Positions 3,383 through 37,035 of a stretch of 64,000 bases of DNA are shown here, in pieces. Position numbers and translations under genes: made by a program. The notes below the pieces were generated by a model, which had not been told where the DNA came from, did not search any database, and worked only from the letters and a program-made list of their open reading frames with translations. The stretch's first letter is position 1. Every line of letters begins with the position of its first letter. The DNA is from Halopseudomonas xiamenensis (GTDB lineage: Bacteria > Pseudomonadota > Gammaproteobacteria > Pseudomonadales > Pseudomonadaceae): positions 62,001-126,000 of the forward strand of contig NZ_JACLGO010000006.1 of assembly GCF_014219065.1 (NCBI RefSeq), read 5' to 3'.

Positions 3383-3497
3383 GGAGCAGGTTGGTAGGCA
3401 GGGTTGGGCCGACCGTCTGCCGCCAGGGATGGCGGCAGCGAGCCTACAGGGATGTATTCACGGCGTGTCGGCACGGCCCTGCCTACCAACCTACTCC
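3383..3497 (+). repeat. Structured intergenic repeat, copy 1
   Basis: First of four copies. The outer arms read GGTTGGTAGGCAGGG and CCCTGCCTACCAACC, a perfect 15-bp pairing that extends with a few mismatches and T-G pairs to about 31 positions. Inside, CTGCCGCCA and TGGCGGCAG form a 9-bp hairpin with loop GGGA. The 3' side of that hairpin continues with GCGAGCCTACAGGG, ATGTATTCACGGCGTGTC. The core of about 65 bp is identical to copy 2, while the outer stem differs in a compensatory way (TA/TA here, CC/GG there). It lies between the convergent DUF2062 gene and lolD, where a second Lol permease might have been expected. A chance reading frame crosses it but has no coding support. Confidence 0.8.
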
Positions 3498-3550
3498 TTG
3501 CAGGACCTGACAGCCAACCTGGTTGAGAGCGATACACCCTACTAATGACC

Positions 3551-4237
3551 TCAGCGCGGCTGCGCCACCAGCCGCCCCTCATCCAGGGTCAACACCCGAT
3601 CCATCTGCGCCGCCAGCGCCAGATCGTGGGTGACTACCAGAAAGGCGGTATGCAACCGCTGGCTGAGTTCCAGCATCAGTTGCTGCACGCTGCGGGCGGT
3701 GTGCTGGTCGAGGTTGCCGGTCGGTTCATCCAGCAGTACGCAAGCCGGCTCGTTGATCAGCGCCCGGGCGATCGCCACCCGCTGGCGCTCCCCCCCGGAC
3801 AGCTCGGCCGGCTTGTGGCCGGCCCGGGCCGACAGGCCGACCCGCTCGAGCATCGCCATACCCCGCTCACGAGCCTGGTCGATCGGCGTTGCTCCGATCA
3901 GCAGAGGCATGCATACATTCTCCAGCGCGGTGAACTCGGCAAGCAGGTGGTGGAACTGGTAGACGAAGCCAAGATCGCTGTTGCGCAACTGGCCACGCTC
4001 GGACTCCTTGAGTGCTGACATCTGCCGCCCTGCCAGCCAGACCTCACCCGTGGTCGGGGTATCCAGACCGCCGAGCATGTTCAGCAAGGTGGTCTTGCCC
4101 GAGCCCGAACTGCCAACAATGGCGACCCGCTCGCCGGCCTGCAGCAGCAGGTCGACCCCATCCAGCACCTGCAGGCTTTGTGGCCCTACCGCGTAGCATT
4201 TGCTCAGTTTCCGGCATTCCAGTACTGCTTCAGTCAT
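3551..4237 (-). CDS. lolD: LolD, ATPase of the lipoprotein-release ABC transporter
   Basis: Cytoplasmic ATPase that powers extraction of outer-membrane lipoproteins from the inner membrane and their hand-over to LolA. About 228 residues, usual length. Walker [10 protein letters not shown] is at residues 42-50, the Q-loop FVYQFHHLL near 91-99, the LSGGE signature at 146-150, Walker [12 protein letters not shown] at about 167-177 and the switch histidine in VVTHD. The ATG at 4237 (MTEAVLEC) is chosen over a longer reading because it overlaps the permease stop by eight bases, the usual translational coupling in lol operons. In P. aeruginosa a second permease follows lolD; here there is only a structured repeat. 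Confidence 0.93.
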
Positions 4238-5474
4238 AACGCAAGGCCTCCGCCGGCTCGGTACGGGATGCACGCCAGGCCGGATAGAGCGTCGCCAGGA
4301 AGCTCATGCCCAACGCAGCAGTGCAGATGATCACGACATCCGTCCAGATCAACTGGGACGGCAGATAGCTGATGAAATACACGTCGGAACTGAGGAACTG
4401 GGTGCCCAGCAATTTCTCCAGCCCCGCCACCAGCGCCGACACATTGAGCGCCGCCAGCACCCCGAGAATACCGCCGGCCAGGGTGCCCACCACACCGATG
4501 ACCGAGCCCTGGACCATGAAGACACCCATGATGGTGCCCGGCGAAGCCCCCAGCGTGCGCAGGATGGCGATATCCGCCTTCTTGTCGGTGACCACCATGA
4601 CCAGGGTGGAAATGATATTGAATGCCGCCACAGCCACGATCAGCAGCAGCAACAGGCCGATCATGGTCTTCTCCATGCGGATCGCGGCGAACAGGTTACC
4701 GTGGCTGCGCGTCCAGTCCTGCGCGTAATAATCGCCCGGCAGCTGCGATACCAGATTCCAGGCCACCTGCGGCGCCTGGAACAGATCGACCAGCCGCAGC
4801 CGCACCCCCTGCACCTGGCCCGGCTCCCAGCGGCTCAGGCGGGCGGCATCGGCGGCGTGAATCAGCGCCATGGAGGCGTCCAGCTCGGCGCCGACCTTGA
4901 ACACACCGGTCACATGGAAGCGCTTGAGCCGCGGGAACACCCCCGCCGGGGTAACCGACGCCTCGGGCATGACAAAAGTCAGCTTGTCGCCCACCTGGAC
5001 ATTGAAACGCTTGGCGATCAGCTCGCCGATGATGATTCCGAACTCACCCTCCTTCAGATCGTCGAGGGTTCCGGCCTGCATGTGCTGGTCGATGATCGAT
5101 ACCCGCGCCTCAGCCTCGGGAATGATGCCACTGACCAGCACCGGGGCTACACTACCGTTATGCGTCAGCATCCCCTGCATCTGGATGAACGGGGCGGCGG
5201 CAACCACCTGGGGATCAGCTTCCAACTGGCTGGCCAGGCTGCGCCAGTCCTCGATCGGCTGGTAGCCGTTGATGCTGGCATGCGGCACCATGCCGAGGAT
5301 ACGGGTGCGCAGTTCACGGTCGAAACCGTTCATCACCGACAACACCAGGATCATCACCAGCACCCCGAGGGTCAGCCCAAGCATGGAGATGAGTGAAATA
5401 AAGGATATGAAGTGGTTACGACGTTTGGCGCGCGTATAGCGCAACCCGATGAAAAACGGTAAGGGTCTGAACAT
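4230..5474 (-). CDS. Lipoprotein-releasing ABC transporter permease, LolC/LolE family (LolF-like)
   Basis: Inner-membrane permease that pairs with LolD to release mature lipoproteins to LolA. The 414 residues show the family layout: one N-terminal membrane segment (about 22-46), a large periplasmic domain, and three C-terminal segments with the FtsX fold. The sequence mixes features of both E. coli paralogues. [10 protein letters not shown] and [16 protein letters not shown] resemble LolE, whereas [13 protein letters not shown] and the tail [19 protein letters not shown] resemble LolC. Such hybrids (LolF) work as homodimers in systems with only one permease. No second permease gene is present beside it, so a LolDF-type exporter is plausible, but a distant second gene cannot be excluded. 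Confidence 0.9.
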
Positions 5475-5568
5475 GGAATACCAGTTACCTGATGGGAAAG
5501 GTCCCGATGAATGGCAGTTCGGGCTGACATGTTACACTGAAACCGGTTTCGGTAAACGGGCCTGAAAC

Positions 5569-6153
5569 ATGCAAACCAACAATCTCGATGGGGTTCACGC
5601 GGGTTACTTCCAGATCCAGGACCGGTTGGCCCTGGATTATCGGTTGATCGCTGTATCACCCGCCCGGCAGCCGCCCCAACCGGAACCATCCCCGCTGTTC
5701 GGCCTGCTCGGCGAATTGCACCTGTTGGACCACGAATCCCAGCATCTGTTGCGCCAGATAGGCGAACATGATCGCGGGCTGGCTGCCTATCTGAAGATCC
5801 TCAACAAGCGTGTCGACCTGATCGGCCGGGCGCTGTCGCTGCAGCTGGTCGAAGACATGGGCGCACCACAGCCAGTGACGCTCAGCGAGGCCGGCCTGAC
5901 TTTCAGCGCCCAGCAGCCGTTGCCGGTGGGCGAGTGGATCGCCCTGCGCCTGCTGCTGCCGGACCCCATCGGGCTAGCGGCAAATGTCCAGATTGCCGAC
6001 TGCGTCCGGGATGCCGCTTCCGGCCGCTATCTGATACAGGTAAGCTTCGCCCAGTGCAACGATGCCCAGCGCCAGCTGCTGGCCCGGCATATCGTGCAGA
6101 AACAGGCACAGGAAATCCGTGCCACGAAACATAACGAAAGGACATCGACATGA
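5569..6153 (+). CDS. PilZ-domain protein, likely cyclic-di-GMP responsive
   Basis: A 194-residue protein with an N-terminal helical part of about 110 residues and a C-terminal PilZ-like domain. The DRLALDYRL stretch near residue 18 and TLSEAGLTFSAQQPLPVG near residue 105 resemble YcgR/PilZ members, where the second motif is (D/N)xSxxG. The strict RxxxR plus DxSxxG pair is not clear, so binding of cyclic-di-GMP is likely but not certain. It matches the conserved PilZ gene between lolC and the glycerophosphodiesterase gene in Pseudomonas. Its stop overlaps the start of the next gene as ATGA, so the two are probably translationally coupled. Confidence 0.75.
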   Translation: MQTNNLDGVHAGYFQIQDRLALDYRLIAVSPARQPPQPEPSPLFGLLGELHLLDHESQHLLRQIGEHDRGLAAYLKILNKRVDLIGRALSLQLVEDMGAPQPVTLSEAGLTFSAQQPLPVGEWIALRLLLPDPIGLAANVQIADCVRDAASGRYLIQVSFAQCNDAQRQLLARHIVQKQAQEIRATKHNERTST

Positions 6154-6443
6154 ACCACCTTCTGCCCCTGGCCCTGGTCACCACCCTGTTTGCTACCACC
6201 GCGGTACAGGCCGATACCCTGGCCATCCCCCTGGGTCAACAGGCTGCCGCGCAACAGCTGGAACTGCCGCAGCGCGGCGCCAGCACCCAGAGCGTACAGC
6301 AGCGCCATGGCCAGCCGAGCACCCGTCACCCGGCGGTCGGCCAGCCGCCGATCAGCCGCTGGGACTACCCCGGCTTCAGCGTCTACTTCGAGCACGACAA
6401 GGTGATCCATAGCGTGCGCCAGCACATTCCCTCAGGTAACTGA
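6150..6443 (+). CDS. Small secreted protein of unknown function
   Basis: A 97-residue protein that I do not recognise by name. It opens with a clear signal peptide (MNHLLPLALVTTLFATTAVQA, cleavage probably after VQA at residue 21), so the mature protein of about 76 residues should be periplasmic. The mature part is low in complexity at first (Q-rich) and ends with a compact conserved-looking segment, PISRWDYPGFSVYFEHDKVI. This short WDY..F.VYFE..KV pattern recalls the BamE/OmlA-like fold, but that is only a resemblance. It starts inside the stop of the PilZ gene (ATGA) and precedes the phosphodiesterase gene by 9 bp, so the three probably form an operon. Confidence 0.75.
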   Translation: MNHLLPLALVTTLFATTAVQADTLAIPLGQQAAAQQLELPQRGASTQSVQQRHGQPSTRHPAVGQPPISRWDYPGFSVYFEHDKVIHSVRQHIPSGN

Positions 6444-6452
6444 AGACCCCAC

Positions 6453-7193
6453 ATGCTCATCTACGGCCATCGCGGTGCCCGCGGCGAAGCCCCGGAAAAC
6501 ACCCTGCCCAGCTTCCGCAAGGCGCTGCAGGCAGGTGTCACCCGGGTGGAGCTGGACCTGCATCTGTCCTCCGACCATCAGTTGATGGTCATCCATGACC
6601 CGACCCTCAAGCGCACCACCGGCATCAAGGGCAAGGTTGCCGCCCAGCGCGCCGCTGACCTGATGCGCATCGATGCCCGTCTCGGCCTGGCCGGCTGGCC
6701 GGAACCCTGCCCGATTCCCAGCCTGGAACAGCTGTTCCAGGCCTGCCCGGAATTCGAGCACTACCAGCTGGAAGTCAAGAGCGGGTCGGCGGCGCAGTCC
6801 CGTCGGGTGATCGATGCCATTACCCGGCTGGTCGACACCTACGACCTCGCGGACAAGGTGGTGATCACCTCGGCCAGCCGTGCCCTGCTGCGCCATGCCC
6901 GCGACAGCGGCTGCAGGCTGCCGACCGGATTGGTCGAGGAGTACGGGCTGCTGGACCCGGTCAAGAGTGCGCTGCGCTATAACTGCCGCTTCCTGGTGCT
7001 GAACTGGAAGCTGTGCACACCGGCGCGCATCGCCCAGGCCCACCGCCATGGCCTGCACGTCTCGGTGTGGACGGTGAACGAACCGCAGTTGATGCTGCAG
7101 TTGTGCGAGATGGGAGTCGACAGCCTGATTACCGATGTGCCGCAGTTGGCTGTCACCGTGTTGCAGGAGGAGACGCCCGGCTCGGTCGAGTGA
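6453..7193 (+). CDS. Glycerophosphodiester phosphodiesterase (GDPD family)
   Basis: Hydrolyses deacylated phospholipids (glycerophosphodiesters) to glycerol-3-phosphate and an alcohol. The 246-residue length fits the cytoplasmic UgpQ-like type, and there is no signal peptide. The catalytic signature [12 protein letters not shown] begins at residue 6; metal ligands are probably Glu33 and Asp35 in RVELDLHL, and the second catalytic histidine is in [11 protein letters not shown] (His48). The C-terminal segment [28 protein letters not shown] is also characteristic of the barrel. It closes the PilZ-small protein-GDPD operon and converges on sthA with only about 20 bp between, with no obvious terminator. 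Confidence 0.92.
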
Positions 7194-7214
7194 CCGTACC
7201 GGGCAAAGGAGACA

Positions 7215-8612
7215 TCAGAACAGCCGGCCGAGGCCGTCCAGCGCCGCGACCCGGTAGGCCTCGGCCATGGTCGGGTAGTTGAAGGTGGTGTTGACGAAAT
7301 ACTTGATGGTATTGGCCTCACCTTTCTGGTTCATGATCGCCTGGCCGATATGCACGATTTCCGACGCCTGGTCACCGAAACAATGGATGCCCAGCACCTG
7401 CAGGGTCTCGCGGTGAAACAGGATTTTCAGCATACCTACCGGCTCGCCGCTGATCTGCGCCCGGGCGGTGTTCTTGAAGAACGCCTGGCCGATCTCATAG
7501 GGCACCTTCTCGCTGGTCAGTTCGCGTTCGGTCTTGCCCAGCGAACTGATCTCGGGAATGGTGTAGATACCTGTCGGCACATCGTCGACAAAGCGCCAGC
7601 TGTCATTCTCGATGATATTGCCTGCTGCCGACCGCCCCTGGTCGAACGCCGCGCTGGCCAGGCTCGGCCAGCCTATGACGTCACCAGCGGCGTAGACATT
7701 GGGCACCTCGGTACGGTAGTTCTCATCCACCGTTACCTGGCCGCGACTATTGGCAGTCAGGCCGATATTCTCCAACCCCAGGCCGTCGGTATTACCCGAA
7801 CGCCCATTGCACCAGAGCAGCGCATCGGCGCGGATCTTCTTGCCGGATTTCAGGTGCAGCACCACACCGCTACCGTTCAGCCCTTCGATCTTGTCGTATT
7901 CCTCATTATTGCGGATGAGCACCGTATTGTTGCGCAGGTGGTAGCTCAGCGCATCGGAGATCTCATCATCGAGAAAGCTCAATAGCCGGTCGCGGTTGTG
8001 AATCAGGTCGACCTTGACCCCCAGCCCGCAGAAGATAGATGCATATTCGCAACCGATTACCCCTGCCCCATAGATGATCAGGGTGCGGGGCGTATGATTC
8101 AGCTGCAGGATGGTATCACTGTCGTAGATGCGCGGGTGGTTGAAGTCGATATCCGCCGGGCGGTACGGCCGCGAACCGGTGGCGATGATGATTTCCTGGG
8201 CCACCAGACGATCCACCGCACCTTCGGTGTTGACCAACTCGATGGTGTGCGCATCGGCAAAGCTGCCTTTGCCGAAAAATAGATCGATGCGGTTACGTGC
8301 ATAATAACTGTTACGCGAGCGTACCTGACGCGAAATCACCTTCTCCGCGCTGGTGAGCACATCCGGGAAGGAAAAGTCCCGCGGCTCGCCAACCGCGCGG
8401 AAGATCGGATTGGTGTTGAACTGAATGATCTGTTTGACCGAATAACGCAGCGCCTTGGATGGGATGGTACCCAGGTGAACGCAATTGCCGCCCACCACGT
8501 TCCGCTCCTCGACCACTGCGACCCTGCGCCCGAGTTTCGCTGCATTGACCGCAGCGCCCTCTCCCGCCGGGCCTGCGCCCAGCACTACCACATCATAATT
8601 GTAAACAGCCAT
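7215..8612 (-). CDS. sthA: Soluble pyridine nucleotide transhydrogenase
   Basis: Flavoprotein that moves hydride between NADPH and NAD+ in the cytoplasm. 465 residues, usual length. FAD motif GAGPAGEG is near residue 12, the NAD(P) motif [11 protein letters not shown] near 180, and the C-terminal dimerisation region ends [21 protein letters not shown]. The segment [13 protein letters not shown] lacks the second redox cysteine of lipoamide dehydrogenases, which distinguishes the transhydrogenase from its relatives. It lies 50 bp downstream of nqrM on the same strand and may be read through from the nqr operon, linking NADH oxidation at the sodium pump with NADPH balance. Confidence 0.95.
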
Positions 8613-8662
8613 TCAATTCGGTCCTGTAGCAATCCTCAAATGATTCCTGCGCGGCCTGCGCC

Positions 8663-8896
8663 TCACTCCTTGCGAGTAGCGTCGTAGCCCAGCGTCTGTG
8701 TTGCCGTCGAACCAGTCCCCTGTTTCGATTCCTCGCATTTGTTCGGGTTGCCGCCGCACAGAGTGCAGCTGGCATCCACACCTGCAGCACCGATACCGCC
8801 ACAGGAGCCGGCGATCGGCTTGCGGCCGGCCATGACACCAACCGCCATGCCAGCGACGCACAGCAGCATCACTGAAAAAGTCACGAGCCAAAGCAT
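8663..8896 (-). CDS. nqrM: NqrM, Na+-NQR maturation protein (DUF539)
   Basis: Small protein of 77 residues needed to assemble Na+-translocating NADH:quinone oxidoreductase, thought to deliver iron for the cysteine-ligated centre of NqrD and NqrE. It has one N-terminal membrane segment (MLWLVTFSVMLLCVAGMAVG) and then a cluster of cysteines at about residues 32, 44, 47 and 54, including CTLCGGNPNKC, the family hallmark. The start has GGAG six bases upstream. It begins three bases after the apbE stop, placing both maturation factors at the end of the nqr operon. Confidence 0.93.
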   Translation of the reverse strand: MLWLVTFSVMLLCVAGMAVGVMAGRKPIAGSCGGIGAAGVDASCTLCGGNPNKCEESKQGTGSTATQTLGYDATRKE

Positions 8897-8899
8897 GCT

Positions 8900-9922
8900 T
8901 TACTCCTTGCCCTCTTGCAGGGCGATGAATCGGGGTGTGCTGCGCGATACGAAGCCGTCCCCCTGACGAATGACGAACAGCGCCGGAAGATCATGTTCCA
9001 GCGCATATTCCCAACCACGCTCCGAACCCATCACCAACAAGGTGGTGGAAAGCCCGTCGGCCCAGGCAGCGGACTCGTGGAGCACCGTCACCGCAGCCAG
9101 ATCATGCATCACCGGCTTGCCGCTGACCGGATCGAAGGTATGCGAATAACGCTGACCCTCATGCTCGAAATAGTTGCGATAGTCACCAGAGGTGGACACA
9201 CCATAGCCACGCAGCGGCAACACCAGCTGGGCCACCCGACTTTCATCCCGCGGTTCTTCCACGGCGATGCGCCAGGGACTACCACCCGGCTTCTCACCGT
9301 CTGCCTTCAGCTCGCCGGTAAGCTCTACCATATAGTCTTTGATGCCCATGGCTATCAGACGTTCGGCTACTTCGTCGACCATATAGCCGGCGGCAATGCC
9401 GCTGACATCCAGCTCCAGCTGGTTGTCCTTGCACAGTTGCTGGCCGCGGATATGCAGATGTTCATGGCCGGTACGCGCCATGGCCTCAGCCAACTGCCCG
9501 GGTTCAGGCAACTGCCGCGGCTCGCCAGCCCCATGAAAGCCCCACAGCCGCATCAGTGGCTCCAGGGTCAGGTCGAAGCTGCCGTCACTGTGCTGATGCA
9601 GCTGCTGCGCCAGTACGACCAGATCGAGAATGGGTTCCGGCATGTCCTGGCAGGTACCTGCCGGTGCCGCATTGAAGCGCGACAGGTCCGAGTCCGGACG
9701 CCAGGTGGAAGCGACACTTTCGAAATCTTCCAGCAACTGTTCTACCGTGGCCTGTACCTCGGCCGCGGGTGGCGTACCTTCCCTACCCACCCACTTGATC
9801 GAATAGGTGCTGCCCATGGTCAAGCCGGTTATTTCGGCAACCGGCTCGGCAGAATTGAAACAGCCCGTCAGGGCTGCTGCCAGGGCAGCAGCACAGACGG
9901 GCCGGACAAGGCGATGCAACAT
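8900..9922 (-). CDS. apbE: ApbE, FAD:protein FMN transferase
   Basis: Attaches FMN through a phosphoester bond to threonines of NqrB and NqrC, using FAD as donor. The chosen ATG (9922) gives about 340 residues with a lipoprotein signal ending in the lipobox LTGC, so the enzyme should be anchored on the periplasmic face. An ATG six codons upstream (9940), overlapping nqrF, is an alternative but has no visible ribosome binding site. Family motifs are present: TGLTMGSTYSIKW near the N terminus, DSDLSRFN, LDVSGIAAGYMVDEVAERL, TSGDYRNYF and YSHTFDPVSGKPV. It sits between nqrF and nqrM, and its likely substrates NqrB and NqrC are encoded a few kilobases upstream in the same operon. Confidence 0.95.
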   Translation of the reverse strand: MLHRLVRPVCAAALAAALTGCFNSAEPVAEITGLTMGSTYSIKWVGREGTPPAAEVQATVEQLLEDFESVASTWRPDSDLSRFNAAPAGTCQDMPEPILDLVVLAQQLHQHSDGSFDLTLEPLMRLWGFHGAGEPRQLPEPGQLAEAMARTGHEHLHIRGQQLCKDNQLELDVSGIAAGYMVDEVAERLIAMGIKDYMVELTGELKADGEKPGGSPWRIAVEEPRDESRVAQLVLPLRGYGVSTSGDYRNYFEHEGQRYSHTFDPVSGKPVMHDLAAVTVLHESAAWADGLSTTLLVMGSERGWEYALEHDLPALFVIRQGDGFVSRSTPRFIALQEGKE

Positions 9923-9923
9923 A

Positions 9924-11150: not shown

Positions 11151-11160
11151 GTCCACTCCC

Positions 11161-11768
<608 letters not shown>

Positions 11769-11769
<1 letters not shown>

Positions 11770-12437: not shown

Positions 12438-12439
12438 GC

Positions 12440-14435: not shown

Positions 14436-14438
14436 TGG

Positions 14439-16077: not shown

Positions 16078-16089
16078 GATTACCACATG

Positions 16090-17529: not shown

Positions 17530-17651
17530 AGTTTTTCCTTCCAGGTCTTGGGAACTAAGAGGGCCGTTATTATGCGGCGAGTGGCCCTGGTAGGCAATCA
17601 TCCGATGGCTAACGGAGTCCGGCCACAGACCCGGACTCCGTCAGCCCCGCG

Positions 17652-18632
17652 TCAGGCGGCGGATTTGCGCGTACTGTACAAGGACAGCAGCACGCCACCG
17701 GCCAGCAGACCGAAGGTCACTCCCAGCGAAATGCCAGCATGGATATGGATACCCAGACCGTGCGCCAGGATCTTGCAACCGATGAAGATCAGCACCAGCG
17801 ACAGGGCGTACTTCAGGTAGACGAAGCGATGCATCAGCGCGGCCAGGGCAAAATACAGCGAACGCAGCCCGAGGATGGCGAAAATGTTTGATGTATAAAC
17901 AATGAACGGGTCCTGAGTGATGGCGAAGATCGCCGGCACGCTATCCACGGCGAACACCAGGTCGGCCAGTTCGATCAGCACCAGGGCCAGGAACAGCGGC
18001 GTGGCGAACAGCACCACCTTGCCGGTCTTGTCCGGCAGGCGGACGAAGAAATGCGAGCCATGCAGATCATCGGTCACACGGAAATGCCGACGGATAAAGC
18101 CGACCATGCGATTCTGCGACAGATCCTTGTGCTCCTCCTCACCCTTGCTGAGGAACATCTTGACCCCGGAGAACAGCAGGAACACCCCGAACAGATAGAG
18201 AATCCACTCGAACTCCTGCACCAGCGCCGCTCCCAGGCCGATCATGATCGCCCGCAGCACTATCACCCCGAGAATGCCCCAGAACAGCACCCGGTGCTGA
18301 TACAGCCGGGGAATGCCGAAGAAGCTGAGAATCATCGCCATGACGAACACGTTGTCCATCGACAACGACTGCTCGATCAGGAAGCCGGTATAGAACTCCA
18401 GCGCACTGGCCGACCCTCTGTCGAACCAGACCCAGACACCGAACAGGATACCCACGGTGAAATAACCGCTGTACAACAGCAGACTCTCGCGCACCTCGAT
18501 TTCATGATCCTTGCGGTGCAGCACACCCAGGTCGAAGGCGAGAATGGCGAGAACGATGGTCAGGAAGGCGAACCACTGCCAGGCGGCGGTTCCGAGAAAG
18601 GGGGTGGTCAAAAAAGAGATCAGCGGCTCCAT
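17652..18632 (-). CDS. TerC/Alx-family membrane protein
   Basis: Integral membrane protein of 326 residues with about nine hydrophobic segments, of the TerC family, whose members include tellurite-resistance TerC and the manganese-related Alx. Family signatures are FDLGVLHRKDHEIEVRESL near residue 33, EQSLSMDNVFVMAMI near 87 and ELADLVFAVDSVPAIFAI near 220; the acidic residues in the last two are thought to bind metal. A cytoplasmic loop with KGEEEHKDLSQNRM follows the mid-protein segments. Divergent from mfd. The leader can fold over the ribosome binding site (see the adjacent regulatory feature). A role in metal export, probably manganese or calcium, is inferred from the family. Confidence 0.9.
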   Translation of the reverse strand: MEPLISFLTTPFLGTAAWQWFAFLTIVLAILAFDLGVLHRKDHEIEVRESLLLYSGYFTVGILFGVWVWFDRGSASALEFYTGFLIEQSLSMDNVFVMAMILSFFGIPRLYQHRVLFWGILGVIVLRAIMIGLGAALVQEFEWILYLFGVFLLFSGVKMFLSKGEEEHKDLSQNRMVGFIRRHFRVTDDLHGSHFFVRLPDKTGKVVLFATPLFLALVLIELADLVFAVDSVPAIFAITQDPFIVYTSNIFAILGLRSLYFALAALMHRFVYLKYALSLVLIFIGCKILAHGLGIHIHAGISLGVTFGLLAGGVLLSLYSTRKSAA

Positions 18633-18709
18633 GGGGCCCTCCGGTCAAAGTTAAGAATCAACTTATGACTCCGACATCACGGTGGGACCAACCACCGCCA
18701 GAGGGGCCC
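18633..18709 (-). promoter_or_regulatory. Structured leader that can bury the terC ribosome binding site
   Basis: On the minus strand the sequence just before the ATG is CCGGAGGGCCCC, so the GGAGG ribosome binding site is five bases from the start. Upstream lies GGGCCCCTCTGG (plus coordinates 18698-18709). These can pair as an 11-bp helix with one bulged C and one G-U pair, covering the whole binding site. Between them, directly next to the upstream arm, CGGTGG and CCACCG form a 6-bp hairpin with loop TTGGTC. Some TerC/Alx genes are controlled by leader RNAs (yybP-ykoY manganese riboswitch), but I did not find that core here. Confidence 0.4.
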
Positions 18710-18857
18710 GGCGTCACGCGGCAATCATGATATAGCTGCCTCGATACTCTGACAAGCGCAACCCCCGCAAGGTCCGATAAAAACATCGGCAATCACAACA
18801 CGGCCCCCTGCTAAGGGTTAAACTGTGCGTTTTGCGCCACAAGATAAGCCCAACCGC

Positions 18858-22343: not shown

Positions 22344-22423
22344 AACTGCAGGCTCCGAGTGTCCTTTGCGCAAGCATTAGTGCCGCTGAGGTTTTAAAAC
22401 CATCAGCAGCCTTGAAGCCTTCA

Positions 22424-22536
22424 GAACCGGTTGGCCGGCAGGGCTGGGCCGACCGTCTGCCGCCAGGGATGGCGGCAGCGAGCCTACAGGGATGTATTCA
22501 CGGCGTGTCGGCACAGCCCTGCCGGCCAACCGGTTC
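22424..22536 (+). repeat. Structured intergenic repeat, copy 2
   Basis: Best-formed copy. The outer arms GAACCGGTTGGCCGGCAGGG plus CTG, and their complement before 22536, pair perfectly over 23 bp. After one mismatch GCCGAC pairs with GTCGGC for six more. The inner hairpin is CTGCCGCCA, loop GGGA, TGGCGGCAG, and the 3' arm carries GCGAGCCTACAGGGATG. The core of about 65 bp is identical to copy 1. Upstream of both copies the flank ACCATCAGCAGC is also shared. It lies between the convergent genes mfd and nagZ and is the only hairpin there, so it may also help end transcription, though no T run follows. Confidence 0.85.
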
Positions 22537-22579
22537 CTCGCAGGAACCAACAAAAGACCCAGCCCCCTTGCCCTTCCCG

Positions 22580-23584: not shown

Positions 23585-23605
23585 AGAATATGCTCCTGCG
23601 TCAGA

Positions 23606-24088: not shown

Positions 24089-24168
24089 GCTCGTCTCCGC
24101 CGCAAAGGCCACACGATAGCGGATACCGGGACCGGAGGTAAGTCCCGGCAAGATGCAATCACCGCCTG

Positions 24169-24849
24169 CTACAGTACCTGCAGGGCTTCCTGGGCATGCC
24201 TGTCGGTATCCACGGCGAGGGTGCCGGCGCGCATGCCGGCTGCCAGGAAGGGCACCATCTGCCGCAGCACCTCCTCGGTACCGGCGCGCTCACCGTGCTC
24301 GGCTTCGGCGATGGCCTTCAATGCCTTCATGCTCGACAGGGTGAACGCCGCGCTGCCGAGCATGAAGTGCACCCGCCAGAACAACACGTCCGGCGGCAGC
24401 TCGGGCGAGCTGCGCAGCACCAGTTCCATGTAGCGCTTGAATACCTTGCCATAGACCTCGGCGAGGTATTTGCGCAGGTGCCCCTGGCTCTGGCTGAACG
24501 CCAGCCCGAGCAAACGCATGAAGGTGGAAAGGTCATTACCACTGCGCGGTTTGACCGCCAGCACCAGGCGCACCAGCATCTCCAGCAATTGCTCCAGCGT
24601 CTGCTCGGGATTGCCGGCCTGTTCGTTGCGCTCCAGCTCCTGCTCCAGGCTGCTGACGAAGGGATTGAGAAAGCGGGTGAATACCGCCTGGATCAGCGAC
24701 TTCTTCGAACCGAAGTGATAATTCACCGCCGCCAGGTTGACGCCCGCCTTGCTGGTAATCAGCCGCAGCGAAGTTTCAGCGAAACCCTTTTCGGCAAATA
24801 ACTGCTCTGCAGCATCCAGAATGCGCTCAACTGTTTCAGACTGTGCCAC
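24169..24849 (-). CDS. psrA: PsrA, TetR-family fatty-acid-responsive regulator
   Basis: DNA-binding regulator of 226 residues. In Pseudomonas it activates rpoS and represses fatty-acid beta-oxidation genes; long-chain fatty acids release it from DNA. The N terminus (VAQSETVERILDAAEQLF) and helix-turn-helix (TSLRLITSKAGVNLAAVNYHF, residues about 27-47) are nearly those of P. aeruginosa PsrA. GTG 24849 has GGAG six bases upstream and gives the PsrA-type N terminus; an ATG further upstream would read through the operator. A perfect PsrA-type palindrome lies 25 bp upstream, so it probably represses itself. The C-terminal dozen residues differ from the P. aeruginosa protein. Confidence 0.93.
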   Translation of the reverse strand: MAQSETVERILDAAEQLFAEKGFAETSLRLITSKAGVNLAAVNYHFGSKKSLIQAVFTRFLNPFVSSLEQELERNEQAGNPEQTLEQLLEMLVRLVLAVKPRSGNDLSTFMRLLGLAFSQSQGHLRKYLAEVYGKVFKRYMELVLRSSPELPPDVLFWRVHFMLGSAAFTLSSMKALKAIAEAEHGERAGTEEVLRQMVPFLAAGMRAGTLAVDTDRHAQEALQVL

Positions 24850-24873
24850 AGACCACTCCAGGAGAAAAACACA

Positions 24874-24897
24874 TGTTTGAAACATACGTTTCAAACA
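24874..24897. promoter_or_regulatory. PsrA operator
   Basis: Perfect 24-bp palindrome TGTTTGAAAC, spacer ATAC, GTTTCAAACA. It contains the published PsrA core GAAAC-N4-GTTTC and extends it by five matching bases on each side. Placed 25 bp before the psrA start, it fits negative autoregulation. The neighbouring divergent lexA promoter begins about 65 bp away and carries its own operators. Confidence 0.85.
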
Positions 24898-24978
24898 GAC
24901 TTGCTGTCAACTCCGACGTTTTACCACACTCCGGCTGCGCTGCAAATATGCAGCGCCGGGCTTGCCCTTGGGCACAAG

Positions 24979-25013
24979 CTGTATATAATCACAGTCACTG
25001 TATAAAAACACAG
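24979..25013 (+). promoter_or_regulatory. Two LexA (SOS) boxes and the lexA promoter
   Basis: Two sites of the form CTG-N10-CAG: CTGTATATAATCACAG at 24979-24994 and CTGTATAAAAACACAG at 24998-25013, spaced three bases apart. The first overlaps a likely -10 box TATAAT (24984-24989) with TTGCCC sixteen bases upstream (24962-24967). This dual arrangement is typical of autoregulated lexA genes and should switch lexA-sulA on after DNA damage. Confidence 0.9.
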
Positions 25014-25023
25014 GCAGACAAGA

Positions 25024-25629
25024 ATGCAGAAACTCACGGCACGGCAACAGCAGGTACTTTCCTTCATCAGGGAATACATGAGCAGCAATGGCTATCCGCC
25101 TACCCGCGTGGATATCGCCAGGGAGCTGGGTTTCCGTTCGCCCAATGCCGCCGAGGACCATCTCAAGGCCCTGGCGCGCAAGGGAGCCATCGAGATGATT
25201 CCCGGCGCCTCACGCGGCATTCGCCTGCCGGCAGACGAGGACACGCCCGATGACAGCCTGCCGGTGATCGGCCAGGTCGCCGCCGGCGCGCCCATCCTGG
25301 CACTGGAGAACATCGAGAATCACTGCAAGATCGATCCGGCGTTCTTCAGCCCTCGTGCCGACTACCTGCTGCGCGTACGCGGCATGAGCATGAAGGATAT
25401 CGGCATTCTCGATGGCGACCTGCTGGCCGTGCATCGCACCAGCGAAGCCCGCAATGGCCAGGTGGTGGTGGCCCGGATCGACGACGAGGTCACCGTCAAG
25501 CGTTTCCACAAACAGGGACGCAAGGTATCGCTGATCGCCGAAAACCCCGAGTTCGCCCCCATCGAAATCGATCTGGGCGAGCAGGAACTGATTATCGAAG
25601 GCTTGAGCGTTGGCGTGATACGCCACTGA
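25024..25629 (+). CDS. lexA: LexA, SOS repressor
   Basis: Repressor of the DNA-damage response; cleaves itself when stimulated by RecA filaments. 201 residues. N-terminal winged helix ([33 protein letters not shown]). Cleavage is expected between Ala87 and Gly88 in GQVAAGAP. The serine-lysine dyad is Ser122 (RGMSMKDIG) and Lys159 (VTVKRFHK). The start lies ten bases after the second SOS box. sulA follows after 11 bp on the same strand. Confidence 0.97.
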
Positions 25630-25640
25630 AGGAGTACGCC

Positions 25641-26138
25641 ATGCAGTATGCGCGAAACGAAGGTTCAGCGGTGCAACCCGACCTGTTGCATCAGGCCCTG
25701 ATGTCTTCCCGTCTGGGCATGCGGCGACTGGCCTCGGCCAGTGTGCCGGAGTCGATGCCGGACGAGCATGTCGGATTCAGTGAAATCAGCCTGAACGGCG
25801 CACCTCGGCAATGCCTGCAGTGGCTGGCACCGGTGTTGCGGGACCTGAGCCAGGCCAATACACCCGGCTGGCTGAGCCTGATCGATCCGCCGCTGCCGGT
25901 CAGCCAGAAGTGGCTGCGTGCCTCCGGCCTGGACCCCCAGCGCATACTCATCATCCGCCCCAAGCACGGCATGGATGCACTGAAACTCTGCTGCGAAATA
26001 CTCGAGCTGGGTTACAGCCACACCGTGGTCAGTTGGCTGCCCTCCTCTTCGCGTACCAGCCAACAGCTGGACAGGGCAGCACAGGCCGGGCATTGCGCCA
26101 GCTTGAACGTTCGCATGGGGAATGCAAGCAACAGTTGA
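25641..26138 (+). CDS. sulA: SulA, SOS cell-division inhibitor
   Basis: Blocks FtsZ polymerisation while DNA is being repaired. 165 residues, near the P. aeruginosa length. GFSEISLNGAPRQCLQWLAPVL, WLSLIDPPLPVSQKWL and HTVVSWLPSSSRTSQQLDRAA resemble Pseudomonas SulA; the first 40 residues are poorly conserved in the family. An upstream AAGGAGTACGCC gives a good ribosome binding site. Eleven bases after lexA without its own SOS box, so it should be made from the lexA promoter. Confidence 0.9.
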   Translation: MQYARNEGSAVQPDLLHQALMSSRLGMRRLASASVPESMPDEHVGFSEISLNGAPRQCLQWLAPVLRDLSQANTPGWLSLIDPPLPVSQKWLRASGLDPQRILIIRPKHGMDALKLCCEILELGYSHTVVSWLPSSSRTSQQLDRAAQAGHCASLNVRMGNASNS

Positions 26139-26149
26139 ACAAAGCGGAA

Positions 26150-26171
26150 CAGTCGGGCGAACGCCCGACTG
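26150..26171. terminator. Hairpin between sulA and a convergent small gene
   Basis: CAGTCGGGC, loop GAAC, GCCCGACTG: a perfect 9-bp stem 12 bp after the sulA stop and 2 bp before the stop of the opposing gene. No T run follows on either strand, so it may work with Rho or as an RNA end protector rather than as a classical terminator. Confidence 0.55.
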
Positions 26172-26173
26172 CA

Positions 26174-26413
26174 TCAGTGCAGCACGCGCTGCTGATCCAG
26201 CTCCAGATCGGGGTCTTCTTCCATGATCTGCCCGGCCATCTGCATGCCGGCACCGATCATGGCCTTGGCCACCTCGACATAGTTGCCCTGCAGAAAATCC
26301 CTGGCTTCCTCGGAGAACTCGATGGTCAACAGCGGCTTGCCCTGCTCATCCGGACGGCGCAAGGCAACCGTGCCATCGGCAAGCTCAATGATCTCGAGAA
26401 AGGGTGAAGGCAT
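26174..26413 (-). CDS. Small conserved acidic protein, unknown function
   Basis: A soluble 79-residue protein that corresponds by position to the small hypothetical gene between sulA and topA in Pseudomonas. I know no function. It reads MPSPFLEIIELADGTVALRR at first, followed by ISF-type strands and an amphipathic helix (ARDFLQGNYVEVAKAMIGAG) and an acidic tail (EEDPDLELDQQ). ATG 26413 is chosen because AGGAGA lies seven bases upstream; the longer reading from 26434 has no site. Confidence 0.8.
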   Translation of the reverse strand: MPSPFLEIIELADGTVALRRPDEQGKPLLTIEFSEEARDFLQGNYVEVAKAMIGAGMQMAGQIMEEDPDLELDQQRVLH

Positions 26414-26474
26414 GTGGCGTCTCCTGTCAGTCAAGCCGCGTAGTGTACCACAGCAACCACGTCAAACCCGACCT

Positions 26475-26978
26475 TCACCACTCCTGCATCGCCTGACGAT
26501 AACGCTCTACCTGCGCAGCCAGTGCGTCCAGTGCCGTCTGCGCCTCGTCGATCTCCCACTGCGCCGCGCTGACCGCGGTAGTGGCGATCAGCTCGCTGCC
26601 AGCCACTGATGCGGCACCGGCAGCGGGCGCCAGCAATTGCTGCCAGGCCCGCAGCAGCCCGGCCAGCCAGCTCTGCGGATTCGCCGCCAATTGCACCAGC
26701 TCGCCCAGCTCCGGCCCGGGGAAACGCTCGGCAACGTCACTGTCGAGCACCTGCTCGACGCTGCGCACATCCAGCAGCGGCCAGCGATAACCTTCGGCCA
26801 CCTCGTGAATCAACGCAAGAACGGTACGGTAGGCATGGAATATCACGTGCTCCCGGTGATAGCGCGCCTGGGTGAGCGCGCCCATCCCCGAGTCACCAGC
26901 CGCAGCCTCCCAGGAAGCCAGGGCCAGGCGGGCAAATGACAGCGCCTGATTGGTGCGGGTGTACACTTCATTCGCCAT
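26475..26978 (-). CDS. DUF6586-family protein
   Basis: A 167-residue, mostly helical, cytoplasmic protein of the family found next to topA in Pseudomonas; function unknown. It begins MANEVYTRTNQALSFARLAL and contains HREHVIFHAYRTVLALIHEV, a histidine-rich helix, then a long C-terminal helix (EIDEAQTALDALAAQVERYR) with coiled-coil character. It starts 11 bp after the topA stop, so it is probably cotranscribed with topA. Confidence 0.8.
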   Translation of the reverse strand: MANEVYTRTNQALSFARLALASWEAAAGDSGMGALTQARYHREHVIFHAYRTVLALIHEVAEGYRWPLLDVRSVEQVLDSDVAERFPGPELGELVQLAANPQSWLAGLLRAWQQLLAPAAGAASVAGSELIATTAVSAAQWEIDEAQTALDALAAQVERYRQAMQEW

Positions 26979-26989
26979 ATCGCCTCCGC

Positions 26990-29605
26990 TCAGCGCTTGC
27001 CCTTGCGCCCGTCGTCCACCACCCAGTTCTTGCCGTCATGGAAAGCACGCCAGCCGCTGGGCTTGCCGTCGATCTCGCTCTGCACGTACTGCTCCTTGCT
27101 CTTGCGGCTATAGCGTACCACCGTCGGATTACCGTCAGGATCAGCCACCGGCGCACTCAGCAGGAAATGGTACTTGGGATCGATCGCCTCGGCGTGGGGC
27201 AACAGTTCCTTGACCAGCGGCGCTCGGGTCTCGCGGTTCTTCGGGAACTGGCTGGCGGCAAGGAACAGGCCCGAGGCACCATCACGCAGCACGTAGACGT
27301 CATCGACCTTTTCGCAGCGCAACTCCGGCATCAGTACCGGGTCCATCTTCGGCGGCGCCGCCTCGCCGCTTCGCAGCAGCTTGCGGGTATTCTTGCAGGC
27401 ACTGTTGGTGCAACCGAAGTACTTGCCGAAGCGACCGGTCTTGAGTTGCATCTCGCTGCCACACTTGTCGCATTCGATCACCGGACCATCATAGCCCTTG
27501 ATCTTGAACTGCCCCTCTTCCACTTCGAAGCCACTGCAATCGGGGTTGTTACCACACACATGCAGCTTGCGACGCTCGTCGACCAGATAGCTGTCCATGG
27601 CCGTCGAGCAGATCGGGCAGCGACGCTTGGCCCGCAATATGCGGGACTCGCCCTCTTCGTCATCTGCCGCCACCTCGTTACCGGGCACCAGGTTCACCGT
27701 GGCCTTGCAGCGCTCCTTCGGTGGCAGCGCATAACCCGAGCAACCCAGGAACACCCCGGTGGAGGCGGTGCGGATCATCATCGGACGACCGCATTCGACA
27801 CAGGGGATATCCGTCAGGGTCGGTTGATTGGCGCGCATACCCTGCCCCTCCGCCGTTGCCCCGGCAGCCTCGAGCTTCTTCCTGAAATCGGCATAGAACT
27901 TGTCCAGCACCTCCTTCCAGAGGGTCTCTCCCTGGGCCACGTCATCCAGCGACTCTTCCATGCGCGCGGTGAAGCTGTAGTCCATCAGGTTGGGAAAGCT
28001 TTCGTTGAGCCGCTCGGTAACGATGTCGCCCATCTTCTCGGCATAGAAGCGCCGATTGTTCAGGGCGACATAGCCGCGCTCCTGGATGGTGGAGATGATC
28101 GAAGCGTAGGTCGACGGCCGGCCAATGCCGCGCTTTTCCAGCTCCTTGACCAGGCTGGCTTCGGAATAACGCGCCGGCGGCTTGGTGAAATGCTGTTTCG
28201 GGTCGAGCTTGACCAGGTCGAGAATCTGCTCGACCTGCATGTCGGGCAGCACCTCGTCCTCACCACCCTTGCCCAGCGGCGGCAGCACCTTGGTGTAACC
28301 ATCAAACTGCAGGATGCGACCACGGGCGCGCAGCTCGAAGTCACCCGCCTGTACGCTGATGGTGGTGGACAGGTAGCGCGCCGGCGGCATCTGGCAGGCC
28401 ACGAACTGACGCCAGATCAGCTCGTACAGGCGCTCGGCATCGCGCTCCATACCCTTGAGTTCAGTGGCCTTGAGCTTCACATCCGAGGGGCGAATGGCTT
28501 CGTGCGCCTCCTGGGCATTGGCCTTGCTGCCGTAGACATTCGGCGAATCAGGCAGGTACTGGCTACCGAAGTTCTTCTCGATGTAGCCGCGGGCCATGCT
28601 CACGGCATCGGCCGACAGGTTGGTCGAGTCGGTCCGCATGTAGGTGATGTAGCCCGCTTCGTACAAGCGCTGGGCCATCATCATGGTCTTCTTCACGCTG
28701 AAGCCCAGGCGCGTGCTCGCTGCCTGCTGCAGCGTGGAGGTGATGAAGGGGGCACCGGGCTTGGTGCTGGTCGGCCGGGCATCACGCTTGACCACCTGGT
28801 AGGTCGCGCCCTGCAGTTTGGCCAGCGCCTGGTCGGTCTGCTGCTTGTTCAGCGGACGGAAGGTCTCGCCGTTTTCCTTGACCACTTCGAAGCGCACCGC
28901 TTCGCTTTTGGGCGTGGTCAGGTTGGCGTGCACTTCCCAGAACTCTTCGGGAATGAAGGCACGGATCTCGCGCTCGCGATCCACGATCAGCTTGACCGCC
29001 ACCGACTGCACACGACCGGCGGACAATCCACGGGCGATCTTCTGCCACAGCAGCGGCGAGACCATGTAGCCCACCACCCGGTCCAGGAAGCGGCGGGCCT
29101 GCTGGGCGTTGACCCGGTTCATGTCCAGCTCGCCCGGCTCGGAGAAGGCGTCCTGGATGGCTTTCTTGGTGATTTCGTTGAACACCACCCGACGATAGCG
29201 GCTGTCGTCGCCACCGATGGATTCGCGCAGGTGCCAGGCAATGGCCTCCCCTTCGCGGTCCAAGTCCGTTGCCAGGTAGATGGTGTCGGCTTCCCGGGCC
29301 AGGCGACGCAGTTCGTCGATGACCTTTTCCTTGCCGGGCAGGATCTCGTAGTGCGCCTTCCAGCCGTTCTCCGGATCGACGCCCATACGGTTGACCAGTT
29401 GTATCCTGGCCTTGGTCTGCTTATCCACTTCCGGCGCCGATGCGGCCTTGCGCCCCTTGGGTTTACTCTCGGTCTTGCTGCTGCCGCTGGTGGGCAGATC
29501 GCGGATGTGTCCGATACTCGACTTCACCACGAAGTCATTGCCAAGATACTTGTTGATTGTCTTGGCCTTGGCTGGTGACTCCACAATGACCAGTGCTTTT
29601 CCCAT
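26990..29605 (-). CDS. topA: DNA topoisomerase I
   Basis: Relaxes negative supercoils by transient single-strand breaks. 871 residues, usual for Pseudomonas. The Toprim domain starts [21 protein letters not shown] with [11 protein letters not shown] near 110. The catalytic tyrosine is in [13 protein letters not shown] near residue 320. The C-terminal half carries three tetracysteine zinc ribbons ([18 protein letters not shown] with [18 protein letters not shown] with [11 protein letters not shown]) and further ribbon-like repeats. A lysine-rich insertion ([21 protein letters not shown]) follows the first strand. It heads a short operon with DUF6586 and probably the small acidic gene. Confidence 0.97.
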
Positions 29606-29702
29606 GGGTAAAGGTATTCCTCAATCAAAAAATCCAGTTTGCCCTGTGGGCAAAGGGGCTCGGCTGCTGCTCGAAGTGGCGGGCAGTCCGGAGGGCCAGA
29701 GC

Positions 29703-29921
29703 CTACACGTCTTCGCTGATAAAGGTAAAGCGCGGATGTGTTTTGCCCTCCACCTCCACATTCCCGGTGAACATTTCCAGCGGACGCACCCAGAGGTCGT
29801 ACTCGCCGTACAGGGTACGATAGACCACCAGGCGCTCTCCGGTTTCAGAATGGCGTGCAATATCAATGACCTGGTAGTCCTTGCCTTTATAGTGGCGATA
29901 GCGGCCGGGTTTCAGTGGCAT
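29703..29921 (-). CDS. DUF1653 protein
   Basis: A 72-residue beta-rich protein of the DUF1653 family, widespread and of unknown function. The family pattern is clear: PGRYRHYKGKDYQVIDIARHSETGE, VVYRTLYGEYDLWVRP, and MFTGNVEVEGKTHPRFTFI. The ATG at 29921 begins the conserved part (MPLKPGRY); a longer reading frame runs upstream into a structured repeat and is not credible. GAGA lies seven bases before the start. Between it and topA a TTTGCCC-TGT-GGGCAAA hairpin (29638-29654) is followed on the minus strand by a T run after five bases and may end its transcript. Confidence 0.85.
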   Translation of the reverse strand: MPLKPGRYRHYKGKDYQVIDIARHSETGERLVVYRTLYGEYDLWVRPLEMFTGNVEVEGKTHPRFTFISEDV

Positions 29922-30014
29922 AGGGTTTTCTCTGCTGATGCTGGTGTTATTCATGGTGGCATGTTGATAGCTGATGGCTGGTGGCTGCAGGTTCAGTGCA
30001 AGGTCGGAGCTTGT

Positions 30015-30103
30015 CGGCTGGCTCTGGTGGACACGCCGCAAGTACGTCCCTGTAGGCTCGTTGATGGCATCCCTGCCATCAAACGGTCCACCAGAGCCAG
30101 CCG
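30015..30103 (-). repeat. Structured intergenic repeat, copy 3 (minus strand)
   Basis: Read on the minus strand: outer arms CGGCTGGCTCTGGTGGAC and GTCCACCAGAGCCAGCCG pair perfectly over 18 bp. The inner hairpin is TTGATGGCA, loop GGGA, TGCCATCAA, followed by CGAGCCTACAGGGACGTA and CTTGCGGCGTGTC. Neither stem shares sequence with copies 1 and 2, yet both stems are intact. The single-stranded arm is nearly identical to the other copies. Confidence 0.85.
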
Positions 30104-30173
30104 CCAAACTCCGCCAAAGAGTCTGTGCATATCACAGGTTGCCCCTCCGCCACACCGACGTACCCAGCAGCGC

Positions 30174-30270
30174 TTGCCGGTCGGGGCAGGCAGACCGTCG
30201 GTTGTCATGGATGACAACCGCGAGCCTACATGGACGTACTTGCGGCGTGTCTGCATGGCCCGACCGGCAA
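30174..30270 (+). repeat. Structured intergenic repeat, copy 4
   Basis: Outer arms TTGCCGGTCGGG... and ...CCCGACCGGCAA pair over 22 positions with two mismatches. The inner hairpin is CGGTTGTCA, loop TGGA, TGACAACCG, and the 3' arm reads CGAGCCTACATGGACGTA then CTTGCGGCGTGTC. The loop change GGGA to TGGA is mirrored in the downstream arm (ACAGGGA in copies 1-3, ACATGGA here). Same orientation as copies 1 and 2, opposite to its neighbour copy 3. Confidence 0.85.
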
Positions 30271-37020: not shown

Positions 37021-37035
37021 TCCCGATTTCTGAAC

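Follow-up and report, generated by a model that had tools for sequence, protein, structure and literature searches.

Four copies of a paired element in the analyzed window

The window analyzed here is a stretch of 64,000 nt from Halopseudomonas xiamenensis (GCF_014219065.1, contig NZ_JACLGO010000006.1, positions 62,001 to 126,000, forward strand). Four copies of a structured element were located in it, all at the places reported in an earlier note made from the sequence alone. Copy 1 lies on the plus strand in a left-truncated unit (3308 to 3504) consisting of the inner arm of a lost left element, a spacer, and a complete right element; this unit aligns with positions 120 to 317 of a 330-bp query containing a dispersed unit, at 87.9% identity over 198 columns. 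The element proper, recognized by its T-shaped fold and a 95-nt model match, occupies positions 3393 to 3487 (contig 65393 to 65487), and carries predicted CsrA-type sites in loop 1 (3424 to 3431) and loop 2 (3447 to 3454), each reading CAGGGATG. Copy 2 likewise belongs to a left-truncated plus-strand unit (22370 to 22544; 82.3% identity to the dispersed unit over 175 bp), which lies within the mfd-nagZ gap. Its element proper was placed by fold and model match at 22433 to 22527, with predicted CsrA-type sites in loop 1 at 22464 to 22471 and in loop 2 at 22487 to 22494.

Copies 3 and 4, both supported by fold and model match, are the halves of a single divergent pair. The left element, copy 3, runs from 30012 to 30106 on the minus strand, where its predicted CsrA-type sites lie at 30068 to 30075 (loop 1) and 30045 to 30052 (loop 2). 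The right element, copy 4, runs from 30175 to 30269 on the plus strand, with predicted sites CATGGATG in loop 1 (30206 to 30213) and CATGGACG in loop 2 (30229 to 30236). Copies 1 and 2 are what remains of such pairs after truncation on the left. With up to three mismatches allowed, the core pattern matched four times in the window and never in 100 dinucleotide shuffles. The four copies are also the sole places in the window with two CANGGAYG 15 to 35 nt apart; simulated sequences had a mean of 0.13 and a maximum of 2 such pairs. The four copies are real, yet they are not the whole set, as a model built from own-genome copies finds 20 in this genome.

The fold is maintained by paired changes

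The four copies have one fold in common, a long outer stem that leads to a three-way junction with two hairpins. RNA folding confirmed it in each (z of −8.7, −10.4, −8.2, and −7.4), and the copies also fold strongly as DNA, in agreement with the shared fold proposed earlier. Covariation was measured in an ungapped alignment that took in 11 of the 12 copies known from the own genome at that stage and omitted the one with an insertion. Both partners have changed at 24 of 39 pairs, pairing is kept in 97.2% of cells, and covariation scores 0.648. None of 500 shuffles matched any of the three measures, and shifting the partner by 1 to 3 columns lowered the score to 0.108 or less. Together with paired changes in wider sets, these controls strongly support the earlier note's claim of selection on structure, for which stem pairing at chance level had been named as the critical check.

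The 68 distinct rows drawn from this genome and 29 relatives show changes of both partners at 35 of 39 pairs; invariance is limited to the C-G pairs that close the two loops (67/67 and 68/68 rows with letters). In a wider set of 128 rows, the closing pairs are C-G in 112/121 and 124/127; the A-Y pair that nominally ends hairpin 2 is unable to form in 62/127, and the loop is therefore a hexaloop. Alignments A2 and A3 had been fitted to model R1, which biases their pair counts toward the structure; no such fitting was applied to A1. The outer stem has a median length of 28 bp as determined by a stem walk limited to 32. Unpaired positions, which had been described as fixed, proved to be so for the GGA, which is constant, but not for loop positions N and Y, which are free in CsrA sites and vary here. 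The CGGCGTGTC that was thought to follow GTA directly is separated from it by four bases (ttca or cttg).

Both hairpin loops carry the CsrA/RsmA site motif

Both loops read C-ANGGAY-G with N free, which is the published CsrA/RsmA site; this feature, the most informative of the element, was missed by the earlier note. PMC7652899 gives the CsrA SELEX site as RUACARGGAUGU, with a hexaloop ANGGAN and bridging of sites 10 to 63 nt apart, and PMC7705225 gives the Pseudomonas aeruginosa RsmA site as CANGGAYG. We collected 198 distinct matches to the element, including one spurious reverse-strand match (locus L015) and six short ones that were partial or cut by the end of a locus; 183 could be parsed for loops. 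CANGGAYG stands at loop 1 in 145 of the 183 and at both loops in 135, and each of the four bases is found at N. The count for loop 2 (168/183) is partly ascertainment, because model R1 and the scan pattern include this loop, and matches to R1 lean to copies with both loops. For loop 1, CANGGAYG was present in 58 of 84 copies located without using that loop, compared with 163 of 20,000 random 30-mers. Loop 1 is off-motif in 38/183 copies, among them all copies of locus L097 and several of L150, and one own-genome copy carries CAGAGATG there.

The two GGAs are separated by 20 nt in 150 of 177 copies, a gap within the published bridging range, so that one CsrA dimer could bind both loops. In 27 distant genomes (locus L322 excluded), 24 copies retain two CANGGAYG on the same strand though other parts differ. 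In the host's CsrA, 56 of 60 residues match 1vpz, a solved structure labeled "carbon storage regulator homolog." Judged from sequence, the loops are thus candidate CsrA/RsmA sites that combine the hexaloop consensus, C-G closure, a spacing within 10 to 63 nt, and a CsrA in the host. The flanks gave no clear excess of a third CsrA-type site, as A.GGA was found in 39/198 5′ flanks and 25/193 3′ flanks, against 27 and 31, respectively, in the reverse-complement control.

Elements are dispersed between genes as divergent pairs

Elements are dispersed between genes across Gammaproteobacteria and were found in 33 of the 397 genomes sampled from the phylum, with tens of copies in some species and up to 44 scored copies per genome. 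CsrA is encoded in all 33 element-bearing genomes of this sample, and the element is in none of the 198 genomes that lack CsrA; this association is confounded by phylogeny, and CsrA is present in 96/96 relatives, including the 54 without an element match.

Two divergent elements, together approximately 300 bp long, make up the basic unit. A 304-bp unit occurs at 98.4% identity between unrelated flanks in two species, and the presence of the element at one site differs between species. The earlier suggestion of a nonautonomous mobile element was thus partly right. Neighboring elements are divergent in 51, convergent in 8, and tandem in 8 of 67 cases (two overlapping matches were removed from 69), and arrays of alternating copies were found. 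Five aligned units have common ends, at which no clear terminal inverted repeat or target duplication was seen by eye. An inverted duplication of the target as the source of the variable stems is unsupported, because the stems travel with the unit. Genes lying between elements (KAP NTPase, FRG, amn, and SDR, named from translations) belong to no common family.

Gene context was assessed with a home-made gene finder, which placed 136 of the 198 matches; 10 were located within predicted genes, and for the remainder there was no usable neighbor or the locus was short. In the fetched loci, an element is held by 31/46 convergent, 8/42 divergent, and 50/113 codirectional gaps of 120 to 800 nt. Codirectional gaps hold 14 sense and 14 antisense single copies, along with 23 sense and 26 antisense copies that have a neighbor; a 3′ untranslated region (3′UTR) regulatory role on adjacent genes is therefore not favored.

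Stem mispairs indicate selection on one folded strand

Mispairs in the outer stem comprise 225 G.T and 30 A.C, after 31/198 matches were dropped that had no stem anchor or fewer than 11 of 16 inner pairs in Watson-Crick form. By copy clusters, 73 lean to G.T, 5 lean to A.C, and 38 are level (P = 1.5e-16), and the pattern-located subset gave 98 G.T against 17 A.C. The excess indicates selection on the GGA strand in a single-stranded, folded state, for which RNA is the simplest explanation. G.T is the milder mispair in single-stranded DNA too, and hence the asymmetry proves strand specificity, not RNA.

Candidate mobilizers and carriers

No general transposase was found for dispersal of the unit. 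Y1_Tnp matches numbered 2 in the own genome and 33 in 13 of 15 further genomes (35 in 14 genomes); none of the 32 Y1 loci scanned had an element within about 1.5 kb. The earlier proposal of a REP/SMAG-like element served by a transposase elsewhere is consequently unsupported for Y1/RAYT enzymes, although an enzyme encoded away from the elements may act on them; in size, too, the element greatly exceeds a REP. On plasmid pDCA, a divergent element pair lies inside the ends of an ISAs1-type insertion sequence, whose inverted repeat measures 17 bp and whose target duplication measures 8 bp. ISAs1-like genes were detected at 1e-10 in 9/96 relatives, and no homologue was detected at that threshold in the own genome. 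As a general mobilizer, ISAs1 was rejected: across 26 scanned of 30 fetched loci, covering all nine genomes, no element was near the ISAs1 genes, and elements appeared only in the plasmid query itself. A transposase gene of this type between two elements was seen only in pDCA, and the pair in the window has no intervening gene. Searches of phages with one own copy, of viral contigs with the exact core pattern, and of Escherichia coli with one copy from a genome of another family gave no match.

A dispersed two-site CsrA-binding module as the favored reading

We consider it rather probable that the element is a dispersed, mobile-like RNA module with two CsrA-binding sites, probably acting as a decoy. 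A transcript reading through the GGA strand would fold into a T of one long outer stem and two short hairpins, each hairpin presenting its C-ANGGAY-G hexaloop as a putative high-affinity CsrA/RsmA site. One CsrA dimer could sit on both loops at once, with the GGAs 20 nt apart. Dispersal as divergent pairs would present one sense copy to transcripts arriving from either direction, and the single copies of the window are decayed pairs. The read-through RNA would most likely capture and titrate CsrA as a small dispersed decoy; it may in addition mark its host transcript in a CsrA-dependent way, and RNase III may trim the long stem. A small RNA module was among the three identities offered by the earlier note. 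Computation establishes the fold with its covariation, the motif and spacing of the loops, the strand-specific selection, and the paired, dispersed arrangement, whereas transcription is presumed, as are CsrA binding and titration, the trimming, and the means of dispersal.

Alternatively, the T-hairpin may be a single-stranded DNA element recognized by some transposase or recombinase, with its likeness to CsrA sites coincidental or secondary, which we regard as unlikely. Such an element would fit the near-identical units of about 300 bp in unrelated flanks, the species-variable presence, the divergent neighbors, the lack of gene-strand bias, and the pair inside the pDCA insertion sequence, and DNA likewise tolerates G.T more than A.C. 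Its recognizer, however, would need to mimic CsrA in both loops, down to ANGGAY, the C-G closure, the free N, and the nearly fixed 20-nt spacing; CsrA accompanies the element in every element genome of the phylum sample, and no element lies near the 32 Y1 loci scanned or near the ISAs1 genes of the 26 scanned loci from relatives. Enrichment in convergent gaps, alternating arrays, and long stems would also suit a REP/BIME-like or YPAL/NEMIS-like repeat whose stem serves to stabilize or process the 3′ ends of mRNAs and which has no function specific to CsrA. This explanation seems improbable, as it leaves the twin CsrA-type hexaloops, their invariant closing pairs, and their spacing unexplained. 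Strong stems and the preference for convergent gaps might finally point to intrinsic terminators, but a run of at least four T's within 15 nt past the stem was found in 0/163 copies, single copies in codirectional gaps are equally sense and antisense, and a terminator has no need of a three-way junction with conserved loops; we reject this reading as very improbable.

Under the decoy reading, the data suggest that mobile repeats carry decoys or switches for the global regulator CsrA/RsmA. More tentatively, a transposable repeat family may have carried a preformed RNA with two CsrA-binding sites across gammaproteobacterial genomes, setting the buffering of CsrA or rewiring its network. If so, each insertion would endow a transcript through it with a CsrA decoy or a CsrA-responsive mark, the family would be a new source of CsrA sites lying mostly outside genes, and species differences in Csr/Rsm regulation could be accounted for in this way. 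Starting from a raw repeat, covariation, loop motif, and strand-specific wobble together point to an RNA-binding protein that can be named.

Comparison with known RNAs and repeats

Rfam at the gathering threshold gave nothing on the element in the window and in ten loci of other genera, so the check for a described family returned no match; the best subthreshold match was Ysr224 (36.1 bits against a cutoff of 70), on the opposite strand. In the literature library searched, no paper was recognized as describing the element. One of five element core strings occurs there, in a PCR-prediction paper.

CsrB/CsrC and RsmX/Y/Z are single-locus small RNA genes with their own promoter and terminator. 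By sequence, the element resembles them in its predicted GGA-hexaloop hairpins, with two sites in the module where they have several CsrA sites. Unlike them, it is a dispersed repeat with a junction fold and variable long stems, and the intrinsic terminator of a Csr/Rsm small RNA gene was not found. To our knowledge, known CsrA sponges are single small RNA genes.

With REP, BIME, and REPIN sequences and RAYT "TIRtrons," the element has in common an intergenic palindromic character, inverted pairs, arrays, and a preference for convergent gaps. According to Di Nocera 2013 (PMC3733652), REPs measure 20 to 40 bp and mostly bear GTAG or CGTC tags, the GTAG ones being RAYT linked. The element differs in its size of about 95 to 115 nt, its two hairpins, and its location away from scanned Y1 genes, and thus has neither REP size and tag nor a flanking RAYT. 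Inspection by eye showed that, of the forms of hairpin 2, TACA alone gives GTAG on the reverse strand, whereas the CCCA and CTCCA forms do not. The likeness to the ISAs1 family is confined to the one plasmid insertion sequence that carries an element pair, the other scanned ISAs1 loci being without one.

NEMIS, ERIC, and YPAL are small noncoding dispersed MITE-like repeats that fold as RNA and can alter neighboring transcripts. These repeats are named in PMC3733652. The element is likewise small, noncoding, dispersed, and predicted to fold as RNA, and it may alter neighboring transcripts too. At the ends of its unit, no clear terminal repeat or target duplication was seen by eye, and it is distinguished from these repeats by its CsrA-type loops.

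A dispersed intergenic element with one fold

The four intergenic copies reported in the earlier note, here placed at 3393-3487 (+), 22433-22527 (+), 30012-30106 (-), and 30175-30269 (+), are all present in the window sequence, and the single fold ascribed to them was borne out, each copy folding far better than shuffled sequence both as RNA and as DNA. The core pattern occurs in the 64-kb window at exactly these four places and was found in none of 100 shuffles. R1, a covariance model derived from 11 of the copies, recovered 20 in the genome to which the window belongs (G000; 4.28 Mb, 82 contigs).

From the outside inward, the element consists of a variable outer stem, GACCGT, hairpin 1, CGAGC, hairpin 2, CGTGTC, and the outer stem again. 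The outer stem has a median length of 28 bp (167 of 198 matches usable, with the stem walk limited to 32) and hairpin 1 about 8 to 9 bp, while hairpin 2 reads TACA...TGTA, CCCA...TGGG, or relatives of these, and rests on a GCC/GGC foot containing a five-base bulge. Paired positions had been said to change together, and in an unfitted alignment of 11 copies from this genome, 24 of 39 pairs vary on both sides with 97.2% of cells pairing, a result reached by none of 500 shuffles. Alignments fitted to R1 displayed both-side change in 35 of the 39 pairs (68 distinct rows from this genome and 29 relatives) and in 38 (128 wider rows). Overall, we conclude that the element is real, widespread, and structure-selected.

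Two loops resembling CsrA/RsmA sites

The only invariant pairs in the 68-row alignment are the C-G pairs closing the two loops, which read C-A-N-G-G-A-Y-G. As N is any base and Y is C or T, the loop A and Y are unpaired; their pairing is impossible in 62 of 127 cases in the 128-row alignment. Excerpts of a review (PMC7652899) give RUACARGGAUGU as the SELEX consensus for sites of CsrA (RsmA, RsmE), the hexaloop ANGGAN as the site seen by NMR, and 10 to 63 nt, with an optimum above 18, as the distance over which two sites are bridged; a passage of a second paper gives CANGGAYG for RsmA of Pseudomonas aeruginosa (PMC7705225). Judged by sequence, the loop motif of the element corresponds to the site of this RNA-binding protein.

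Among 183 parsed of 198 distinct matches, CANGGAYG fits loop 1 in 145, loop 2 in 168, and both in 135; the loop 2 count is partly built in, as that loop belonged to the scan pattern, which did not include loop 1. Loop 1 departs from the motif in the other 38, including all copies of locus L097 and several of L150. It carries the motif in 58 of 84 pattern-located copies versus 163 of 20,000 random 30-mers. The two GGA triplets are separated by 20 nt in 150 of 177 cases. Twin motifs 15 to 35 nt apart occur in the window only in the four copies (100 simulations: mean 0.13, maximum 2), and the best R1 match taken from each of 27 distant genomes keeps two motifs on one strand in 24 of them. The CsrA encoded in the window's own genome (61 aa) is identical to the solved protein 1vpz at 56 of 60 residues. 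The element is very probably a two-site CsrA/RsmA binding module that acts at the RNA level.

Two own-genome variants were observed. A copy on contig C8 (locus L002; also L057) carries, at ~1475-1496 of L002, an extra 22-nt perfect palindrome adjoining hairpin 1, a predicted further junction arm, and its loop 1 reads CAGAGATG. In a second subfamily, on contigs C13 and C14 (L058-L061), hairpin 2 takes the altered form GCGCCATGGATGGCG and lacks the bulge, yet both CANGGAYG loops are retained.

The folded strand

G.T and A.C mispairs are each other's complement; selection on a double-stranded palindrome would therefore give equal counts. On the strand carrying both GGA loops, however, outer stems contain 225 G.T versus 30 A.C mispairs. 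Single copies lean to G.T in 105 cases and to A.C in 8, with 54 level; clusters of similar copies do so in 73 and 5, with 38 level (p = 1.5e-16); and a stem-independent subset (69 usable of 84) gave 98 versus 17. The excess places selection on one folded single strand, that bearing the GGA loops. The simple reading is that this strand folds as RNA, with single-stranded DNA as the alternative.

Arrangement, dispersal, and turnover

Non-overlapping neighbors less than 450 nt apart (n = 67) are divergent in 51 cases, convergent in 8, and tandem in 8, and a pair makes up a unit some 300 bp long. On contig C7 this unit shares 98.4% identity across 304 bp with a unit elsewhere in another species (G036), with unrelated flanks; the orthologous position in G036 holds an 88% identical unit in opposite orientation. 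Window copies at 3393-3487 and 22433-22527 match the right part of the dispersed unit, and the left element is absent.

The mfd-nagZ gap, which holds the copy at 22433-22527, is kept in G006, G035, and G003 with no R1 match; in G036 another element (65.6 bits) lies behind mfd, where the neighboring gene differs. Any R1 match was seen at 5 of 30 scanned mfd loci. The DUF1653-VWA gap holds the pair in six species (G000, G036, G035, G007, G006, G004), whereas G003 has a remnant there and G025 has no match; L292 and L301 of this locus set have one element each. These presence/absence differences indicate that copies are gained and lost. In G008 (L283), a different palindromic repeat, starting GTCATTGCGAG, lies where other species have the pair; intergenic repeats may have a hotspot in this gap.

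An ISAs1-family insertion sequence (NCBIfam NF033564) on plasmid pDCA encloses a divergent pair of the element. Its terminal repeat is perfect over 17 bp, and directly outside both ends is an 8-bp repeat, the mark of transposition. This insertion sequence is one likely vehicle of the element; ISAs1 genes are rare in relatives, and at scanned loci none was linked to it. Spacers of several pairs in G349, of the same class (L335-L343), contain other short palindromes with GTAG ends, which we take to be REP/SMAG-like; here two repeat families form mosaics. Elements also flank a KAP-type NTPase gene in Shewanella marisflavi (L133, 5095-7160) and an FRG-domain-like gene (L173, 626-1780), both named from their translations by eye.

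Gene context and possible role

Gaps of 120 to 800 nt were classified with a simple gene finder; as loci were fetched for holding elements, only the comparison between gap types is meaningful: an element is present in 31 of the 46 convergent gaps, 50 of the 113 codirectional gaps, and 8 of the 42 divergent gaps. Where the flanking genes are codirectional, single copies split evenly between sense and antisense (14 each), and copies with a neighbor are sense in 23 cases and antisense in 26. With neither strand favored, the counts argue against the adjacent gene being regulated via its 3'UTR. With the divergent pair as basic unit, transcription from either side would cross one sense copy, an arrangement better suited to a decoy or a mobile element than to such 3'UTR regulation. 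In the cell, the element may act as a decoy, mark the transcript, or serve a mobile element as one of its devices. By would-be mode of action the nearest kind is the CsrA-sequestering small RNAs, and by manner of spread the REP/MITE repeats, but some defining features of each are missing from the element.

Distribution and known RNA families

The element is present in 28 of 37 same-genus genomes and 42 of 96 genomes of relatives (own included in both), and in 33 of 397 genomes of a phylum sample, all 33 in the window's class. Hosts among the matches listed include Xanthomonas, Stenotrophomonas, Marinobacter, Rheinheimera, Alteromonas, Shewanella, Sodalis, and Cellvibrionaceae. The contig of L173, labelled as a Klebsiella pneumoniae MAG, has four R1 matches, and this label may be a binning error. 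CsrA was found in all 96 relatives and in 199 of the 397 phylum genomes, and these 199 include all 33 with the element (Fisher, 5.5e-11), an association confounded by relatedness because many CsrA-less genomes are distant relatives. Phage records had no match to one own-genome copy used as query, and viral contigs none to the exact core pattern.

The earlier note knew of no named family with this consensus. Rfam gave no match to the element at cut-off in the window and ten loci from other genera; low-scoring matches were to hairpin families. Searches of an open-licence literature library yielded no paper recognized as a description of the element. Elsewhere in the window, Rfam matched a cspA thermoregulator at 36689-37065 (+) (95.6 bits) and a terC RNA at 18662-18719 (-) (58 bits), the latter directly upstream of a minus-strand ORF at 17652-18632.
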